From Nitratireductor aquimarinus (GTDB lineage Bacteria; Pseudomonadota; Alphaproteobacteria; Rhizobiales; Rhizobiaceae), in the NCBI RefSeq assembly GCF_017255295.1, contig NZ_JAFKDE010000011.1, forward strand, positions 62,001 to 126,000: DNA of 64,000 bases. Direction: 5' to 3'. Position 1 is the first letter of the stretch; each line of letters starts with the position of its first letter. A program made the position numbers and the translations under genes. Of the stretch, positions 13,934-24,023 are shown one piece after another. The notes under the pieces are model-generated. The model did not search any database and was not told where the DNA came from. It saw only the letters and a list, made by a program, of their open reading frames with translations.

Positions 13934-13948
13934 TGACAAAGATACTCA
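13934..13948 (+). promoter_or_regulatory. Iron-responsive operator (TGA-N9-TCA) with -35-like TTGACA
   Basis: TGA (13934-13936) and TCA (13946-13948) are separated by exactly nine bases, the form of the IRO motif through which RirA represses iron-uptake genes in rhizobia. The motif overlaps a -35-like TTGACA (13933-13938), so occupancy would block transcription of the siderophore operon that starts about 40 bases downstream. Confidence 0.6.
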
Positions 13949-13989: not shown

Positions 13990-14421
13990 ATGCAGTATCG
14001 TCTCCTTTCGCCAGAAAGCCTGATACCGACCGAAGACGTCGACCCCGACCGGGTTGCCGGGCTTCAGGACGCTATTTTGCGCCATGGCTTCTGGACCGTG
14101 CCCATCGCGGTCGAGAGGAACGCCCTGTTCGTGATGGATGGCCATCATCGTCTCGCCGTCGCCCAGCGCCTGCGTCTTGCCGTCGTTCCGGTTGTGTTGC
14201 GCGACTATTGCGACGTGAAGGTGGAGAGCAGGCGGCCGGGCATGACGATAACGCCAGCGCGCATCTTCGCGATGGCGCGCAGCGGCCGCAAATTCCAGAG
14301 CAAGACCACGCGGCATGTATTCGTAGAGGAACTGCCCGACTGCGCGCTGCCGCTTGGCCATTTGCGTCACCCGGGCATCGCGCCGCGTTTCTTCAGGTCA
14401 GCGCCCGAGGCGCGCCCGTGA
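13990..14421 (+). CDS. SbnI/SerK-like ParB-fold free serine kinase
   Basis: Protein of 143 residues with the ParB/sulfiredoxin-type fold. DGHHR (residues 50-54) and KTTRH (105-109) are the motifs shared by SerK and related free L-serine kinases; staphylococcal SbnI carries the equivalent DGVHR. These enzymes make O-phospho-L-serine, the substrate of SbnA-type synthases, and an SbnA-like gene follows two genes later. It is shorter than SbnI and lacks its long C-terminal part. The start at ATG 13990 begins at the conserved N-terminus; in-frame ATG codons at 13954 and 13957 are alternatives. It is the first gene of the siderophore operon and overlaps the next start by 4 bases. Confidence 0.72.
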
Positions 14422-15860
14422 CGTTTCATGGCCACAAGCCCAATGCCGGGCTCTCCCCCGTCTTAAGCCCGGAAATCGCAAGAGTTCTGGCCGAAGAAAG
14501 CACGCTTCTAATGGAGTGGATCGACCGGCACGGCTCCCCGCTCAACCTGATCTGGCCCGGACAGCTGGCGAAGAACCTTGCCGCGATGGAGGCGGTTTTC
14601 GCGCAGTGTCGCGTCGCCCATGCGGTCTATTATGGCGCCAAGGTCAACAAATCACCGGGCCTCATGGCCACGGCATTGAAAGCCGGTGCCGGGATTGACG
14701 TGTCGAGCCTCTATGAGCTTCAGGACGCCCTGCATCTCGGAGCCGATGGGGGAAAGCTCGTGGCAACGGGACCGGCAAAATCCCGGGCGTTTCACGAAGC
14801 CCTGATCGATTGTCAGGCCCTGATTTCGGTCGATTCACCGGAAGAACTCGATGATCTGATCGCCCGCCTTCCAGACCGGGAGTGCGTGCAGCCGGTGCTT
14901 TTGCGCCTGCAGCCTGCCGGTCATGAAAAGAGCCGTTTCGGCATGCCCGCACCGCGCCTGCGCGCCTGCCTTGCGCGCATTGCCGCCGAAAAGAGACTGC
15001 GCTTCGATGGGCTGCACTTTCATATAAGTGGTTATGCCTGGGAAGAGCGCGCAGAAGCATTGCGTGAAGCCGCTCCGCTGATCGCTGAAGCCCGCGCCAT
15101 GGGGTTCGCCCCGCGCATGATCGACATTGGCGGCGGATTGCCGGCGCAATATGTCGATCCGCACGCCTATCGCGTGCATTTGCAGGCGCAGAGGCCTGAC
15201 GATTATCGAACCGGAAGAGTGCCATCCGCGTTCTATCCCTATGGGGGCGCGCTTTCCGCCGCCGACTGGCTGCGCCATTTGCTCGACGCTCCCATGGGCG
15301 ATGGCCTCAGCGTTGCGGACTATCTGAAGCGCGAAGCGCTGACGCTCGGGCTGGAGCCGGGGCGTGCACTCGCCGATCAGACGGCGCTGACGCTCTTTCG
15401 GATACTGCGGGTCAAGGCGCTCACGGCCGGAGACCATGTGATCTTTGTCGAAGGCAGCAGTTTCAGCGCCTGCGAGACTTGGTTTTCGTCCGAATTTCTG
15501 GTCGATCCGGTCCTTTTGCCGACGGGTCGCTCCGCACGCTTACTCAGGCCCGTTCGTGCCTACATCGCAGGCCACAGCTGCCTGGATGAAGACGTGCTGT
15601 GCAACCGTTGGCTCACCTTTCCGGTTGCTCCACGCGCCGGAGACATTCTGGTCTGCGCCAACACCGGCGGCTACCAGATGGACCTCCTCGAAAACGAATT
15701 TCATCGCCACCCGATGCCGGGCCGCCTTTGCGTGGTTCAGGACTCAAATGGGCAGCCAGCTCTTGTTCCTGACACACTGACGAGAGGCGCACATGCTTTG
15801 CAGCACCATTGGCCAGTTGATCGGTTATACGCCGGTCATGACGATCCCTGTGCCGAATAG
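14418..15860 (+). CDS. Type III PLP decarboxylase of the siderophore operon (SbnH-like)
   Basis: Decarboxylase of 480 residues of the diaminopimelate/ornithine decarboxylase fold. The PLP lysine is K75 in [17 protein letters not shown] near 200, IDIGGGLP near 235, GLEPGR near 311 and the cysteine of CLDED near 388 complete the active site. In staphyloferrin B synthesis the homologue SbnH decarboxylates a diaminopropionate unit to a diaminoethane unit; the same chemistry is likely here. The GTG start (14418) overlaps the preceding stop as GTGA. The last 68 bases overlap the start of the next gene, an unusually long overlap. Confidence 0.83.
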
Positions 15861-16803
15861 CGACGCTACGCTGGCACTCAAAATCGAGAAGAACAATCCA
15901 GGCGGTTCGATGAAAGACCGCATGGCGCGCAGCATGGTCATTGCCGCACTTGAAGACGGAAGGCTTTCCCCCGGCGGGACGATTGTTGAATCCTCTTCCG
16001 GCAATACCGGCATAGGCCTGGCGCTTGCCGCACAGGAGTTCGGTCTGCGCTTTATCGCCGTGGTTGACCACCACGCCGCACCCGACAAGATCCGCACCAT
16101 GCGGGCGCTCGGCGCGGAGATCCGCTTTGTCGAAGGCGATTTTCGCGAAGACGAGGTTGCGGTGGTGGAGCGGCAGCGGCTTGCCGCACAGCTCGGTGCG
16201 CAGCTACCCGGCGCGCTCTTCATGAACCAGTCCGACAACCCGGCGAACCCGGATGGCTATGCCGGCTTTGTCGATGAATTGCTCGTTCAGTTTCCCAGAG
16301 GGATCGACGCCTTTGTGGGCTGTGTCGGTACCGGCGGCTCCATGACCGGCATCGCCCGGCGTCTGAAGCGGCACAATCCGCGGATTCGCACGATCGCGGT
16401 GGAGCCGGCGGGCTCCATCGTTTTCGGCAAGCCGGGGCATGCCTATTATCAGTCTGGCACGGGAACACCGGCCGGCGACGAAGTGGGCAAAGTGCTCGAT
16501 TACACCTGCATCGATGAAGGCGTGCAGGTTACCGACACGCAGGCGTTTGAAACCGCGCGCCATGTCGCCCGCCATCATGGTCTTCTGGTCGGGGGCTCCA
16601 CGGGCGGAACCATCTACAAGGCGCTGGAATTCATCGCGTCCGGCCATCTTTCGGGCACGGTTGTTACCGTGGTGGCCGATGGCGGCGAGAAATATCTGGG
16701 CTCCATCTTCGATGATGACTGGATGCACAAACGCAACCTGCTCGACCCCGCGATTGGCGAGCAGCTCGAGTTCTGGCTCTCCGGCATGGCGTGCGCGGCA
16801 TGA
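15793..16803 (+). CDS. SbnA-like PLP synthase (cysteine-synthase family)
   Basis: Fold-type II PLP enzyme of 336 residues. The PLP lysine is K41 in NNPGGSMKDR, the substrate loop is SSSGNTG (67-73), and the phosphate-binding loop GTGGSMTG starts near 179. Members of the SbnA branch join O-phospho-L-serine to the amino group of an amino acid (glutamate in SbnA) to give an N-(2-amino-2-carboxyethyl) amino acid, rather than making cysteine. The serine-kinase-like gene upstream supports this. GAGAGG precedes the ATG at 15793, inside the end of the decarboxylase gene. The accepting amino acid cannot be read from the sequence. Confidence 0.82.
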   Translation: MLCSTIGQLIGYTPVMTIPVPNSDATLALKIEKNNPGGSMKDRMARSMVIAALEDGRLSPGGTIVESSSGNTGIGLALAAQEFGLRFIAVVDHHAAPDKIRTMRALGAEIRFVEGDFREDEVAVVERQRLAAQLGAQLPGALFMNQSDNPANPDGYAGFVDELLVQFPRGIDAFVGCVGTGGSMTGIARRLKRHNPRIRTIAVEPAGSIVFGKPGHAYYQSGTGTPAGDEVGKVLDYTCIDEGVQVTDTQAFETARHVARHHGLLVGGSTGGTIYKALEFIASGHLSGTVVTVVADGGEKYLGSIFDDDWMHKRNLLDPAIGEQLEFWLSGMACAA

Positions 16804-17939
16804 AGGTCACGATCTGCGGCGCGGGCCGCACCGGACATCTCAACGCAGTGCTTTTCAGGCAGCAGCCGAATGTCAGCGTTTCCGTCTTCACCCGGAACGC
16901 CGAACTGGCTGAACTTTGGGCCTCTGGCGAGAGCCAGTGGGAGGCGCACACCGCTGACGGCGGTGTGCTCTCGGCGCGGCCAGACTATGTGGGCGTGGAT
17001 GCCGAACGGGCGCTCTCGCAGACGGATCTCGTCGTGGTGACCCAGCCCGCACAGGCGCGCGCCGGGCTTCTTGAACAGCTTGCGCCACACCTCCCGCAGG
17101 AGAGGCGCGTCTTTCTCGGCGCGATCCCCGGCTTTTGCGGGTTCGACTGGCTGGCCGCCGAGATTCTGGCTGGACACGACAATGTCGTGATCTGGGGCAT
17201 GAAGGATGTGCCCCACACGGCGTTCGACCTGACGCCTGGAAAGCGCGTGCGCATGGGCGGCGCAAAGGCGCAGCTTTATGCAGCGCTTCACCGCCGCGAG
17301 GATGACGCCCACGGTGCGGAACTGGCTGGCATGCTTGCCACGCTGTTTGCGGCCCCGGTGACGATGCTGCGCGACTATCTGGAAATCACGCTCACCCCCG
17401 GCAATGCACTCATGCACCCCGCCGTGCTCTATGGCCTGATCGGCCCGGACGGGCCATGGCAGGGCAGAGCGTTCGACGCACCCGTCTGCTGGTGGAGCGA
17501 TTGCCCGCAAAAGGGCGCGGATCTCCTTGAGGCGTGTGATGCGGAAAATCAGGCGATCCGCCATGCGGCAGAGGCGAAGCTCGGCATCGATCTCAGCAGC
17601 GTCAAGCCGCTCCGGCAGGAATTGATCGAAGCCTATGGCGACCAGATCGGGGATGCCCGAAGCCTCTATTCGCTCCTGCGCACGAACCGCGCCTATGCCG
17701 GTATCAAAGCCCCCATGACGCCTGATCCGCAGGGGCAGGGGCTGGTGATCGACCGCGAAAGCCGCGCCTTCCACGAGGACATCGGTTTCGGGCAGGCCCT
17801 GCTGGTGGAGATGGCGAAACGGCTCGGCGTGGCGGTTCCCAACATCGCGAAAACCTATCGCTGGGCCTGTGATTATCACGGCGGGTTGGCCGATGCCGCG
17901 CCGGCCTATGTGCCCCGCAACTGGCCGGAGGCTGCGTGA
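16800..17939 (+). CDS. Opine dehydrogenase (octopine dehydrogenase family)
   Basis: NAD(P)-dependent enzyme of 379 residues with an N-terminal Rossmann domain (GAGRTG at residues 7-12) and the all-helical C-terminal octopine-dehydrogenase domain. The catalytic histidine is probably H206 in MHPAVLYG. The family condenses a 2-oxo acid with an amine and reduces the imine, or runs the reverse. In the sbn cluster this position is held by SbnB, an ornithine-cyclodeaminase-like protein of a different family. The enzyme here could either release diaminopropionate or build a carboxyethylamino (opine) unit. Start ATG 16800 overlaps the previous stop (ATGA). Confidence 0.8.
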   Translation: MKVTICGAGRTGHLNAVLFRQQPNVSVSVFTRNAELAELWASGESQWEAHTADGGVLSARPDYVGVDAERALSQTDLVVVTQPAQARAGLLEQLAPHLPQERRVFLGAIPGFCGFDWLAAEILAGHDNVVIWGMKDVPHTAFDLTPGKRVRMGGAKAQLYAALHRREDDAHGAELAGMLATLFAAPVTMLRDYLEITLTPGNALMHPAVLYGLIGPDGPWQGRAFDAPVCWWSDCPQKGADLLEACDAENQAIRHAAEAKLGIDLSSVKPLRQELIEAYGDQIGDARSLYSLLRTNRAYAGIKAPMTPDPQGQGLVIDRESRAFHEDIGFGQALLVEMAKRLGVAVPNIAKTYRWACDYHGGLADAAPAYVPRNWPEAA

Positions 17940-19828
17940 TGGATGACATTCGCCTTTACACCGCCGCCAGTCTCGATGAAGCGCCTTTGCGGGAAAACGC
18001 AGTGCAGAACGCACTGCGAAGGCTCATCCGCTGCCTGTTCGCCGAAGGCCTGCTCGATCCGGCGGCCCTGCAATGGGCCGGGGACAGAAATGAGGCGGAA
18101 CTTCCGCTCTGGCCATCGCGCCGGGTTCTCCATTTCGCTGATCTGCGTCGTGCGCCCGCCGGCACACTGCGCAATTTCGGACCGATGGAGCTTGTCGATG
18201 CGGCAGGCGTTCGCGCCCGCATCGAGCACCCCGTCACGCTGGTGCGGGCGATTGCCCCGAGCCTTGCCATGTCGCCCGCGGCCAATGGCATCACACATCT
18301 CCTGCGCGACATCGAAAACAGCATGGCAAACGACATTCTGGCGCGTCGCTACCGCGCGGATTGGAGCGCGGGGCTGCGACGCCGGATCGATGATGGGAAG
18401 GCCCCCGGCCTCCTTGCCTATCTGCAGGAGACCCTGCCGCCCCATCTGGCGGCGATGTTCCTCGATCAATGGGGCGCGCTTGAAGGGCACCCCTTCTATC
18501 CAACGTGGAAGGCGCGCCCGGGCCTCTCGGCAGAAGACGTGGAAGCGTTCTCGCCCGAGTTCGGCGCGCGGGTGCCGGTGCGTATTGCCGCGCTGCGCAG
18601 GGACTGGGCCCATGTCGAGAGAATGCCTCATGTGGCCGATTATTCCGACTGGTTCGCGCAGAATTTCCCCGATTGCTGGCGGGACTGGTCGCACCGGTTG
18701 GAGGCGTGCGGCCAGGTGGTAACGGAGTGGATACCGCTGCCGATCCATGCCTGGCATCTGACGCATTTCGTGCGCCACGAATTTGCAGACGAGATCGCCC
18801 GTGGCGTGCTCGACCCGGAAGGCCCCGACTTGGTGACGCTGCCTTCCATGTCGTTCCGCACCATGCTGCCGGAGACGCAAACCCCGCGCCCCTTCATCAA
18901 ATTGCCGGTCGCGATCTGGATGACCAGCGAGCAGCGCACCCTGCAGGCCAAGTCCATCCATATGGGGCCGCGCCTCAGCACGATGATCCGCGATATCCTG
19001 ATGCGCGAAGGGGAGGCGCTAACCGACAGGCTCGACATTTTCACCGAGGAGCTGGGCGCGATCCTCCGCGATCCCGAAACGGGCGATGAGCATCCCGGCC
19101 GCTTTCTCTCGGTTGTCTATCGCAACACCGATGTGCTGAAGCTTGCCGACGGTCAGATCGCGGTCGCCGTTGCCGCCCTTCTTGCCGAAAGCCCGCTCGA
19201 TGGCCGGCCTCTCATCTGCGAGCTGATCGCCCGGGGAGACGAGGGCGGCGAGGGCGATGCGGCGGTGGAAGCCTTCTTCCGCTCCTATGCACGCACCATC
19301 ATCGAGCCCGTGCTCACCATGTATCTGCTCTATGGCATTGCCTTCGAGGCGCATCAGCAGAACAGCACCATCCTGTTCGATGCGGCGGGCAGGCCACGAA
19401 AACTGCTGATCCGCGATTTCGGCGATGGCCGCAGCTTCGCACCGCTTTTCGAGGAACGTGGCTTCCGGCTGAAACCCTTTGTGCGGGAGGGCATTCTACC
19501 CACCACGTTCGACGAGGATATCGGCCCGGTGCGGTCCTTCCTCATCGATGCCTGCTTCGTCTGCCATCTGCACGAGATCGCGCTCACCCTCACCGATCAC
19601 TATGAGCTCCGCGACACAGGCCTGTGGCGCATTCTCAGAGAAGAAGCGGAAAGCGTTTTCGACGCGCTGCGCCCGCGCATGCTGAGCGACGCCTTCTGGC
19701 AGCGGGAGCGTGCGGCGTTCCTTGAAGAGCCCTGGCCGACGCGCTCCGTTCTGCGCATGCATCTGGAGCGATACCGCGACTACCGCGCCGAGCACACGCT
19801 GCCCAACCCGCTGGCGGAGGCGCAATGA
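17939..19828 (+). CDS. NRPS-independent siderophore synthetase (IucA/IucC family)
   Basis: Synthetase of 629 residues, the usual size of IucA/IucC proteins. Conserved stretches include [22 protein letters not shown] and [15 protein letters not shown] in the ATP-binding half, and EAHQQNS and RDFGDGR (near 492) in the C-terminal ferric-reductase-like half. The enzyme adenylates a carboxylate such as citrate, a dicarboxylate or 2-oxoglutarate and couples it to an amine. It is the only NIS synthetase of the cluster; staphyloferrin B needs three. The start overlaps the previous stop by one base (TGATG). A-, B- or C-type preference is not assigned. Confidence 0.9.
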
Positions 19829-21045
19829 CGCTCACGGCAACGGTCATTCGCGGCTTCGGGCCGGTCTTTGTTCTGCTCTTTGCGCTGCAATTCGTTTCCA
19901 TGGGCGCGATGGAGATGAGCGGGCCGTTCTGGCCGCTGCACATCGAGGCGCTGAGCGCTTCTGAAAACGCCTTCGCCCTTGCCGGCATCGGCGTCTACGT
20001 GCTTCCCATGCTCGGCATGTCGCTGACCAGCGCTTTCTGGGGGTGGATGGGTGACCGCTACGGCAACCGGTTGATGATGGTGCGCGCGCTTGCGGGGCTG
20101 GCCGTCACGCAATTGCTGGTGGCCTTCGCAACCGATGTGTGGACCATCATGGCCCTGCGCTTTCTGCAGGGGGGATGCGCGGGCTATATCGCCCCGGCGC
20201 AGGCCTATGGGGTTCAGGTCACCGGGGGCAGGGACCGCACAAGCCTGTTCGCCTGGCTCCAGGTGGCCACCAATGTGGGCTCGCTTGGCGGCGCGTTTCT
20301 GGGCGGACTGATCCTCGATGCCTACCCCTTTGCCGTGATCAACCTCACCGCCGGCGCGGTCTGCGCCCTCTGCGCCCTTGTCGCCTGGCTAAGCCTGCCG
20401 ACACCGCAGGGCGAAGCGCCCGCCGTGGGCGCGTGCAGGGTGCAGGCGCGGCCGGCCGAGGCGCCTGTCACCGCGCTCTTTGTTTTGATGGGCACGCTCA
20501 TTGCCAGCCGCATGGTGCTTCAGGTTCCGTTCGCGCTCTACATGACGCAGGTTTTCGGCGCGGCCCACTGGGTTGCCGGCTTCAGCTACGGCCTGCTCGC
20601 TCTCGGTTTCGTGCTTGCCGCGCCGCTGTGGGCGCGGTTCCTCGAAGAGCGGCCCAACGCCTTTGTGCTGGGCTGGAGCGTGCTGATCTCGACTGCGTGC
20701 CTGCTCGTCACGCATCTCGCTGGGGCCACCAGCTCCGTTGCGACATTCACCATGCTCTATTTCCTCTGGGGTGTGCTTCTGGGCGGCACCACGCCCGTTC
20801 TGCTCTCGCTTGTCTCGGCAGCCACGCCGGGCGACCGGCAGGGGCGGGCGCTTGGCCTCGCGCAAAGCTGGCAGCAGGGCGCATCCGTGATCGGCATCAC
20901 CGCCGGCGTCATCGCAACGCGGCTCCTGGGACTGGAAGCCGCGTTCCCACTCGTCTCATCCCTCTACGCCCTCTCCACCTGCATTGCGCTCGGCACATGG
21001 CTGAGGGAGCGACACTCAAACAAACAGGAGATTTCAAATGACTGA
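19825..21045 (+). CDS. MFS transporter, probable siderophore exporter
   Basis: Major-facilitator protein of 406 residues with about 12 membrane segments and a loop-2/3 motif [13 protein letters not shown] near residues 73-85. It starts 4 bases inside the synthetase gene (ATGA) and ends inside the binding-protein gene, so it is part of the siderophore operon. In the same position staphylococcal clusters encode the exporter SbnD. Export of the finished siderophore is the most likely role; import of the ferric complex seems less likely because a complete ABC importer follows. Confidence 0.82.
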
Positions 21046-22213
21046 AAGACGAACCCTGCTTGGCTCCATCGCCATGGCAGTTCTGCTGACCCTGACCGTG
21101 CCATCAGGGTTGGCTCTTGCCAATGACAAGCCGGCGGCTCAGGCGCAGGCACCGCTTGTCGTGACCGATATTGCAGGCCGCGAGGTCACCGTTCAGGCGC
21201 CCGTTCAGCGGATCTTGCTGGGCGAGGGCAGACAGCTTTACCTCATTGCATCGCTCGCCCCGGAAAACCCGCTTTCGCGCATCGTCGCCTGGCGCAACGA
21301 CTTGATTGAGGCGGACCCTGCCACCTATGCGCAGTATCTGATGGCGTTTCCCGAGCTTGCGGACCTCACCACGTTCAAGGGGCAGGAAGACAGTCTGATC
21401 GATATCGAGTCGGCCATCATCCAGAAGCCCGATGTGGTTCTGCTCAACCTCGAGGCCATGCGCGCCAATGAGGACGCCGAATATGTCGAGAAGCTCGCCG
21501 CGCTCGATATTCCGGTTCTCTATGTGGACTTCCGGCACATGCCGCTCGAAAACACCGATCCGACAATCCGCCTTCTCGGCAAGATCATGGGCCGCGAGGA
21601 CAGGGCGGAGGAAATCGTCGCCTTTCGGCGCAAGGCAATGGCCGAGGTGACCGATGTCATCGCCGCGCAGAGGCCTGAACGACCGAACGTGTTCATTGAG
21701 CGCATCGGCGGCTATTCGGAGGAATGCTGCCTCACATTCGGGCCGGAGAATTTTGGCAAATATGCCGAGCTCGCCGGCGGCCACAATATCGGCAGCGATT
21801 TCCTGCCCGCCACCTTCGGCCAGCTCAACCCGGAACAGGTGATCGTCTCCAACCCGGATCATGTGGTCGTTACCAGCGCGGACTGGGAAGCCTATGTTCC
21901 CGGCGGGCGCTGGATACCGGTCGGTCCGGGCGAAGACACCGAAAACGCGCGCGAAAAGCTGGACTGGTACACGACGCGCAACGCCTATGCCGGCACCGAG
22001 GCGCAGGAAAAGCAGAATTTCCACGGCATCTGGCACCAGTTCTACAACAGCCCCTATGATTTCGTGGCCGTGCAGCAGATGGCGAAATGGTTCCATCCCG
22101 AGCTCTTTGCCGATCTGGACCCGGACGAGACATTTGCGGAATATCACCGCCGCTTCCTGCCCGTAGACTATCTGCCGGGCTACGCCGTGAGCCTGTCCGA
22201 CAATCCGTCATGA
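21038..22213 (+). CDS. Ferric-siderophore ABC transporter, substrate-binding protein
   Basis: Periplasmic binding protein of 391 residues with a signal peptide (about 1-28, cleavage near ALA-ND). The body has the two-lobe Peripla_BP_2 (FhuD/FecB type) pattern: [20 protein letters not shown], then PDVVLLN and a central helix region. It overlaps the exporter gene by 8 bases and the permease by 4. No lipobox is visible, so it is probably soluble. It should deliver the ferric siderophore made by this operon to the following permease. Confidence 0.85.
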
Positions 22214-23277
22214 CCGGCATTCGCAGTGAAACAGCGCCCCTTTCGGGGCGCACCTCCTATCAGGCGCTGACCCTGCGGCGAAAGCTCGTTCTCGCCGCTC
22301 TCTCCATCGCTCTCGTTCTGGCGCTGATCGGCGACATCGCAACAGGGCCGGCAAGCTATGGCCTTTGGGATGTGGCGCGCACGCTGATCGCGCCGGCCGA
22401 GGCCGATGCGCAGATGCGTGTCATCGTCTGGTCCATCCGCACGCCGGCCGCCTTAATGGCCATTGTCGTGGGCATGGCGCTCGCCATTGGCGGGGCGCAG
22501 ATGCAGACCATTTTGAACAACCCGCTGGCGAGCCCCTTCACGCTGGGCATTTCAGCCGGCGCGAGCTTCGGCGCGGCGCTGGCCATCGCTTTCGGTGTCG
22601 CCCTCATTCCGGCAGCGGGCGAATATGTGGTTGCGGTCAACGCTTTCGTGGTCGCCATGGCGACGGCCTGTCTCATCCACATGGCGAGCATCAGGCGCGG
22701 GGCGTCCATCCAGACCATCGTTCTGTTCGGCATCGCGCTTGTCTTCAGCTTCAACACCGCGCTGGCCATCACCCAGTATTTCGCCAATCAGGAGGCGGTT
22801 GCTGCCATCGTGTTCTGGACCATGGGGAGCCTCGCCAAGGCCACATGGCCGAAATTCTTCATGACCGCGCTCGCTGTGGCCATCACGCTGCCGATCTTCC
22901 TGCGCCGCCGCTGGCAGCTTTCCGCGCTGCGGCTGGGCGAGGCGAGGGCGGCCAGCTTCGGCATACCGGTGCGCCGCCTGCGGCTTGAAACGCTGATCCT
23001 CGTGTCGCTTCTCTCGGCCATTCCGGTGGCCTTTGTGGGCACGATCGGCTTCGTCGGGCTCGTTGGCCCGCATATCGCGCGCATGATGGTGGGCGAGGAC
23101 CAGCGTTTTCTCCTGCCGGCAAGCGCGCTGACCGGCGCGCTGATCATGTCGCTGAGTTCGATCCTGGCAAAGGTCGCTGTGCCCGGCGTCGTGCTGCCCA
23201 TCGGCATCGTGACCGCGGCCGTTGGCCTGCCGGTCTTCCTCTATCTGATCCTCAAGAACGGGAGAGAGATATGGTAG
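22210..23277 (+). CDS. Ferric-siderophore ABC transporter permease (FecCD family)
   Basis: Permease of 355 residues with 8-10 hydrophobic segments. FecCD marks are GGAQMQTILNNPLASPFTLGIS near residue 95 and GFVGLVGPHIARMMVGED near 280. Only one permease gene is present, so the importer probably uses a homodimer. The start chosen is ATG 22210, overlapping the binding-protein stop as ATGA; a longer open reading upstream lies inside the binding-protein gene and is not credible. It overlaps the ATPase gene by 7 bases. Confidence 0.88.
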   Translation: MTGIRSETAPLSGRTSYQALTLRRKLVLAALSIALVLALIGDIATGPASYGLWDVARTLIAPAEADAQMRVIVWSIRTPAALMAIVVGMALAIGGAQMQTILNNPLASPFTLGISAGASFGAALAIAFGVALIPAAGEYVVAVNAFVVAMATACLIHMASIRRGASIQTIVLFGIALVFSFNTALAITQYFANQEAVAAIVFWTMGSLAKATWPKFFMTALAVAITLPIFLRRRWQLSALRLGEARAASFGIPVRRLRLETLILVSLLSAIPVAFVGTIGFVGLVGPHIARMMVGEDQRFLLPASALTGALIMSLSSILAKVAVPGVVLPIGIVTAAVGLPVFLYLILKNGREIW

Positions 23278-24023
23278 TTTTGAGCACGGATCGCCTGGGT
23301 GTTCGCTTCGGGTCGCGTGATGTGCTGCGCGACATCACGCTGCCGCCCTGCGACGGCGGCAAGGTGGTTGCCATTGTCGGCCCCAACGCGGCGGGCAAGT
23401 CGACCCTCTTCCGCCGCATCGCCGCCCTTCTGCCGGGGCCGGGCTCCTTCAGCATCAGAAATGTGCGCGATCCCGCCCGGGCCATCGCCTACATGCCGCA
23501 GGACCAGAGCGGCAGTGCGGTTCTGACCGTCTTCGAGGCCGTTCTGCTGGCCCGCAAGCAGGTGAGCGGCTGGCGGCTGCGAAACGGTGACCTGATGGCG
23601 GTCGACCAGACGCTTCAAACGCTTGGCATCGACCATCTCGCCGACGAGGTGCTGTCGGAACTGAGTGGCGGGCAGCGCCAGCTTGTCGGGCTTGCCCAGT
23701 GCCTCGTGCGCGATCCGCAGGTGCTGCTTCTGGACGAGCCGACCAGCGCGCTCGACATGAACCGCCAGCTGGAAGCCCTGAGCTGTGTGCGCGGGCTGGC
23801 GCGCGAAAAGGACATGCTCGTCCTGATCGCGCTGCACGACCTCAACCTGGCGCTGAAATTCGCCGACGAGGTGGCGATCCTGTCAAACGGAACGCTTCAT
23901 GCTTTTGGGCCGGCGGCCAATGTGCTGACCCCCGACAACCTCGCCACCAGCTTCCGCGTGCGCGCCCGCGTCGAGCCCTGCTCACGGGGTGAACCGCATC
24001 TCATCGTGGATGAGGCGATCTGA
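23271..24023 (+). CDS. Ferric-siderophore ABC transporter ATP-binding protein
   Basis: ATPase of 250 residues of the FepC/FhuC type. Walker A is GPNAAGKST (about residues 41-49), signature LSGGQRQLVGLAQ near 132, Walker B LLLDEPTSALD near 153 and the switch histidine in ALHDLN. The size is typical. It is the last gene of the ten-kilobase siderophore operon and overlaps the permease stop. No terminator is evident in the following 140 bases. A TonB-dependent outer-membrane receptor, needed for uptake, is not in the window. Confidence 0.88.
   Translation: MVVLSTDRLGVRFGSRDVLRDITLPPCDGGKVVAIVGPNAAGKSTLFRRIAALLPGPGSFSIRNVRDPARAIAYMPQDQSGSAVLTVFEAVLLARKQVSGWRLRNGDLMAVDQTLQTLGIDHLADEVLSELSGGQRQLVGLAQCLVRDPQVLLLDEPTSALDMNRQLEALSCVRGLAREKDMLVLIALHDLNLALKFADEVAILSNGTLHAFGPAANVLTPDNLATSFRVRARVEPCSRGEPHLIVDEAI

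Follow-up and report, generated by a model that had tools for sequence, protein, structure and literature searches.

In a 64,000-nucleotide stretch of Nitratireductor aquimarinus DNA (contig NZ_JAFKDE010000011.1, hereafter the window), we analyzed nine co-directional genes at positions 13990-24023 and found that they very probably form an iron-repressed operon that makes, exports and re-imports the siderophore rhizobactin. We infer the enzymatic steps, their order, the iron repression and malate as the acyl donor. Neighboring genes mostly overlap by a few bases, and their families were assigned with Pfam and NCBIfam profiles. All the genes that an earlier note on this DNA had assigned to a siderophore operon are present, in order and at the stated coordinates. 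Locus numbers beginning with L are our own.

The strongest evidence for rhizobactin comes from Pseudomonas sp. FEN. This strain releases rhizobactin (C15H27N3O8) together with rhizobactin B, which has citramalate in place of malate, as established by high-resolution mass spectrometry and tandem mass spectrometry, and for rhizobactin B also by nuclear magnetic resonance, and pyoverdine was not found in it (PMC7676072). We found that the FEN genome carries this cluster (L063), sharing all five biosynthetic genes, the kinase-like gene included, and the exporter. The genome has one PF04183 gene and one PF02317 gene, which are neighbors in the cluster with their domains about 600 bases apart. Rhizobactin needs one hydroxy-acid amide and one reductive N-alkylation, and thus matches the IucA/IucC synthetase and octopine dehydrogenase families. 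The cluster holds the sole candidate synthetase of a chemically proven producer. The FEN copy differs in adding a PbtI-like gene, a class V aminotransferase-like gene, sigma factor and FecR genes, and a TonB receptor gene. A class V aminotransferase/SufS-like gene is an extra of the Pseudomonas (L063, 13843-17083) and Serratia (L101, 12495-13679) copies, and the sigma factor and FecR are extras of the Pseudomonas copies.

The proposed pathway would begin with the ParB/SerK-like kinase, which would supply O-phosphoserine (OPS). The SbnA-like enzyme would couple OPS to the alpha-amine of lysine, giving N2-(2-amino-2-carboxyethyl)lysine, and the Y4yA decarboxylase would strip the carboxyl of the serine-derived (diaminopropionate) end, giving N2-(2-aminoethyl)lysine. 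The octopine-dehydrogenase-family enzyme would then join the free ethylamine to pyruvate by reductive condensation, and the single IucA/IucC synthetase would acylate N6 of lysine with malate, or with citramalate where a PbtI gene is present. The major facilitator superfamily (MFS) protein would export the product, and the substrate-binding protein (SBP), FecCD permease and ATPase would import the ferric complex. The sum of this route (lysine + phosphoserine - phosphate - CO2 + pyruvate + 2H - water + malate - water) is C15H27N3O8. The computed [M+H]+ was 378.1871 compared to 378.1866 measured for rhizobactin, and 392.2027 compared to 392.2020 for the citramalate form.

Next to this mass balance stands the conservation of catalytic residues. 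In the dehydrogenase, H209, R325 and D330 correspond to the catalytic residues of octopine dehydrogenase, and an alignment of 84 sequences showed them conserved in at least 98%. The glycine-rich start of its nucleotide-binding Rossmann domain is invariant, which places it among the opine dehydrogenases. Its structural model (predicted local distance difference test score 92.6) best matches octopine and norvaline opine dehydrogenases in the PDB, ahead of the staphylopine type, and both of these top matches are pyruvate users. K74 (the pyridoxal phosphate (PLP) lysine), the EPGR motif, C351 (catalytic Cys) and Y418 are invariant in the decarboxylase. Its AlphaFold model, whose C-terminal half has low confidence in parts, is about equally similar to D-ornithine/D-lysine and diaminopimelate decarboxylases. 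Together with the FEN link and the mass balance, these residues lend support to the rhizobactin reading of the earlier note.

The SbnA-like enzyme is less easily assigned. It scored 239.9 bits, below the SbnA equivalog cut-off of 349.95, with 35% identity to true SbnA. Three SbnA residues have been described for OPS selectivity (PMC12414870). We found that R132 is kept, and that Y152 is replaced by S and S185 by G throughout the relatives. Since the equivalog cut-off was missed and these two residues are replaced, sequence fixes neither the acceptor nor the donor, and the latter may be OPS or O-acetylserine. The presence of the ParB/SerK-like gene argues for OPS. This gene, described earlier as serine-kinase-like, is indeed present, and almost every copy of the cluster has it, but its resemblance to the SerK profile is weak (30 bits, cut-off 380). 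E15, D50, H53, R54 and a KTTRH motif are invariant among its relatives, one of which is annotated as ParB N-terminal in RefSeq.

The gene set is not confined to this genome. A scan with the dehydrogenase identified 80 loci in Rhizobiales, Leisingera, Thalassospira, Burkholderiales, Pseudomonas, Pectobacterium and Proteus. Across these loci, the genes for decarboxylase, SbnA-like enzyme, dehydrogenase, synthetase and exporter are conserved as a group; the ParB-like gene is found in nearly all of them and a TonB receptor in most. Recurrence of the set in about 80 loci is far beyond chance. The dehydrogenase was found in 3 of 100 genomes and, within the genus, in 1 of 10 (the source genome only), and this sparse occurrence suggests that the cluster is accessory. 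A near-identical copy lies on an 858 kb plasmid of Nitratireductor sp. OM-1, with 97-100% identity gene by gene except for the exporter. The OM-1 MFS exporter gene (L081, 13890-15106) is split over two frames and unannotated, by a frameshift or a sequencing error.

We identified two named relatives of this cluster kind, in which SbnA-like, octopine-dehydrogenase-family, Y4yA, one IucA/IucC, MFS and ParB-like genes stand together, as they do here. On pNGR234a of Sinorhizobium fredii NGR234, y4yB-y4yA-y4xP-y4xO-y4xN-y4xM are six genes in identical order with 59-85% identity to this operon. They differ in lying within the type III secretion locus, flanked by nopX and nopL, without adjacent importer genes or iron operator. 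The set has been termed curious and its role enigmatic, and y4xP expression is flavonoid-dependent (PMC3973906). The other relative is the Proteus mirabilis proteobactin cluster pbt (PMI0229-0239; L076), which shares the biosynthetic set, MFS, SBP and ParB-like genes, mostly at 45-65% identity (ParB-like, 38%). It differs in being rearranged and in having its own TonB receptor and the CitE/RipC-like PbtI. A review citing Himpsl 2010 describes pbt as iron-repressed and its product as a predicted hydroxycarboxylate siderophore, and reports that iron chelation was lost only in the mutant lacking pbt and nrp together (PMC11026637). We found no proteobactin structure in the accessible literature. 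Thus, the word "undescribed" used of this operon does not hold, as it corresponds to pbt and y4yB-y4xM, whereas "poorly described" does, its product being unassigned in accessible literature.

Rhizobactin has been known since 1985 and came from S. meliloti DM4. In this species we found the cluster on accessory plasmids, including in strain AK83. The pSymA of S. meliloti 1021, the maker of the different siderophore rhizobactin 1021, carries no such dehydrogenase. Rhizobactin 1021 is assigned to rhbABCDEF, a pathway with two synthetases, a lysine-type monooxygenase and an aminotransferase, and no second synthetase, lysine-type monooxygenase or aminotransferase was found among the nine genes. In S. 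meliloti M270, pSymA (L100, 5648-8017) has a ParB-like gene and, at 81% identity, an SbnA-like gene beside a transposase, with the remainder of the cluster absent.

We also found a TGA-N9-TCA box upstream of the first gene. Boxes of this kind stand 53-67 bases ahead of the first gene at 22 of 33 rhizobial loci, where 0.22 were expected, and across the rhizobial copies their arms are constant and their spacer letters variable. The motif corresponds to the known consensus of RirA, an iron regulator of rhizobia, and we infer from this match that the box may be a RirA site. Among the 33 rhizobial loci, it was not found in the Bradyrhizobium, Leisingera, one Rhizobium and the NGR234 type III-island copies. 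Bradyrhizobium is not known to have RirA. The lack of the operator in the NGR234 copy (L083, 3999-11044) fits symbiotic control in place of control by iron.

The choice between malate and citramalate may depend on PbtI. Every Pseudomonas, Pectobacterium, Serratia and Proteus copy that we saw has a PbtI-like gene, as does one Bosea copy, but none stands beside this operon or any copy from rhizobia, Burkholderiales or Thalassospira. In NCBIfam, PbtI matched RipC (the C-C lyase of itaconate degradation) best, ahead of CitE but below the cut-off. RipC is a citramalyl-CoA lyase. The presence of the PbtI-like gene in the Pseudomonas, Pectobacterium, Serratia and Proteus copies and its absence from rhizobial ones fit citramalate (rhizobactin B) and malate (rhizobactin), respectively. 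Consequently, this operon most likely makes rhizobactin itself, and our analysis predicts that proteobactin would be rhizobactin B. For pbt, Himpsl's proposal was oxaloacetate, according to the review (PMC11026637). The distribution of PbtI on the synthetase tree, which is unrooted because the outgroup branches are too long, follows taxonomy. This pattern amounts to few events, in which the chemistry of one member is known, and does not count as independent evidence. The source genome has other HpcH/HpaI-family genes elsewhere, with at most 37% identity to FEN PbtI.

An operon without PbtI could still make rhizobactin B or another acyl variant if its synthetase took citramalate or citrate from general metabolism. 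FEN makes both forms, suggesting a tolerant enzyme, and the best NCBIfam match of our synthetase, the rhizoferrin synthetase FslA, uses citrate. However, the PbtI-like gene is missing here and from the rhizobial copies, and rhizobial rhizobactin is described with malate (PMC7676072), so that we regard such a variant as unlikely. The same compound might also be assembled in mirror order, as rhizobactin appears pseudo-symmetric about its ethylenediamine and the atoms would be identical. The SbnA-like enzyme would then use alanine, and the dehydrogenase would join N-(2-aminoethyl)alanine to the 2-oxo acid of (N6-acylated) lysine. This order is highly improbable, since the closest solved dehydrogenases use pyruvate and lysine's 2-oxo acid cyclises when free.

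A staphyloferrin B- or rhizoferrin-like product would require the dehydrogenase to act oxidatively like SbnB and free diaminopropionate from an OPS-glutamate adduct; the decarboxylase would turn this into diaminoethane, to which the one synthetase would attach two hydroxy acids. The staphyloferrin B cluster (sbn) shares the SbnA-like enzyme, SbnI-like protein, decarboxylase and IucA/IucC family with this operon. The synthetase and exporter are closest to FslA and FslB in NCBIfam, and a lone synthetase can build rhizoferrin (PMC7857480). However, FEN, with one synthetase and one dehydrogenase, makes rhizobactins containing alanine and lysine, and the predicted bis-acyl-ethylenediamines (m/z 293, 321, 409) are absent from its reported chelators. 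The operon has an opine dehydrogenase instead of SbnB, and one synthetase against several in sbn clusters; its PF04183 gene is the only one in the source genome, which was examined by protein-family searches. Given also the missed SbnA cut-off, we consider this product very unlikely, and the staphyloferrin B alternative raised in the earlier note is disfavored. In staphylopine-type opine metallophores (cnt), an opine dehydrogenase likewise makes part of the metal-binding unit. This operon differs from cnt in having a siderophore synthetase independent of nonribosomal peptide synthetases (NIS synthetase) and a dehydrogenase nearer octopine dehydrogenase, and no nicotianamine-synthase-like gene was found among the nine genes.

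Several observations weigh against rhizobactin as the product. The FEN link is an association of genotype and chemotype and not a knock-out result, and the FEN genome is a draft. The FEN authors pointed to homologues of rhbAB, two genes of the rhizobactin 1021 type, and left biosynthesis open (PMC7676072); y4xP has been reported as a cysteine synthase (PMC3973906). The enzyme reactions on these substrates are predictions. Furthermore, the TonB receptor of the relatives' clusters has no relative in the source genome, where the S. meliloti cluster receptor found at best a match of 30% over 124 residues. The four plug receptors in this genome look like catecholate (1), haem (2) and B12 (1) types. 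Without a cluster-type receptor, outer-membrane uptake of the ferric complex is unexplained in this strain. A second locus of the genome (L103, G000:C2:44000-56000) encodes an SstD-like binding protein and an IreA/FepA-like receptor of the catecholate type; 75 bases upstream of the receptor gene stands a box resembling the iron operator. This would be a separate locus for xeno-siderophore uptake.

Features of the proposed rhizobactin operon and its upstream region in the window.
Feature	Position	Strand	Basis or remark
Candidate RirA-type iron-responsive operator TGA-N9-TCA, TGACAAAGATACTCA	13934..13948	+	56 bases upstream of first gene
ParB/SerK/SbnI-like protein (y4yB), probable serine kinase giving O-phosphoserine	13990..14421	+	Weak SerK profile match, conservation
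Fold-III (type III) PLP decarboxylase, Y4yA family	14418..15860	+	PF02784, E 3e-24
SbnA/cysteine-synthase-like beta-substitution synthase (y4xP)	15793..16803	+	PF00291, E 4e-68
Octopine/opine dehydrogenase (y4xO)	16800..17939	+	Octopine_DH PF02317, E 8e-29
NIS synthetase, IucA/IucC-FhuF family (y4xN/PbtA)	17939..19828	+	PF04183, E 1.5e-46
MFS exporter (y4xM), FslB-like, probable siderophore exporter	19825..21045	+	Profiles; in nearly all relatives' clusters
Periplasmic ferric-siderophore binding protein	21038..22213	+	Profiles, recurrence among relatives
FecCD-type ferric-siderophore permease	22210..23277	+	Profiles; start taken from 98%-identical annotated relative
Ferric-siderophore ATP-binding cassette (ABC) ATPase	23271..24023	+	Profiles

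Sister clusters were found in Agrobacterium (pAt2, L095), Rhodococcus opacus (plasmid 8, L096) and Aureimonas (pAU20b, L097). They contain an ornithine-cyclodeaminase-like gene, a Y4yA-like decarboxylase and an SbnA-like enzyme 46-50% identical to that of this operon. Two of the three also have a ParB-like gene, and none has IucA/IucC or opine dehydrogenase nearby. The Aureimonas cluster adjoins a multidrug and toxic compound extrusion (MATE) exporter and an iron ABC importer. These clusters possibly make another ethylenediamine-type chelator.

We found no published link of rhizobactin to this cluster, proteobactin or the y4x genes, in a search that covered mostly open-access literature. The cluster most likely gives rhizobactin its missing genes. 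The chances are evenly balanced for the wider reading as a whole, in which the rhizobactin genes are this cluster, proteobactin is rhizobactin B, NGR234 y4y-y4x make rhizobactin under flavonoid control, and PbtI switches malate to citramalate. If true, this would provide the genes for a forty-year-old siderophore, a predicted structure for proteobactin and a function for genes of a type III island. It would also correct a common mix-up of rhizobactin with the unrelated compound rhizobactin 1021, as AK83 carries this cluster though said to lack "the rhizobactin operon" (PMC3164228). Finally, it would mean that an NIS synthetase and an opine dehydrogenase cooperate in one pathway.

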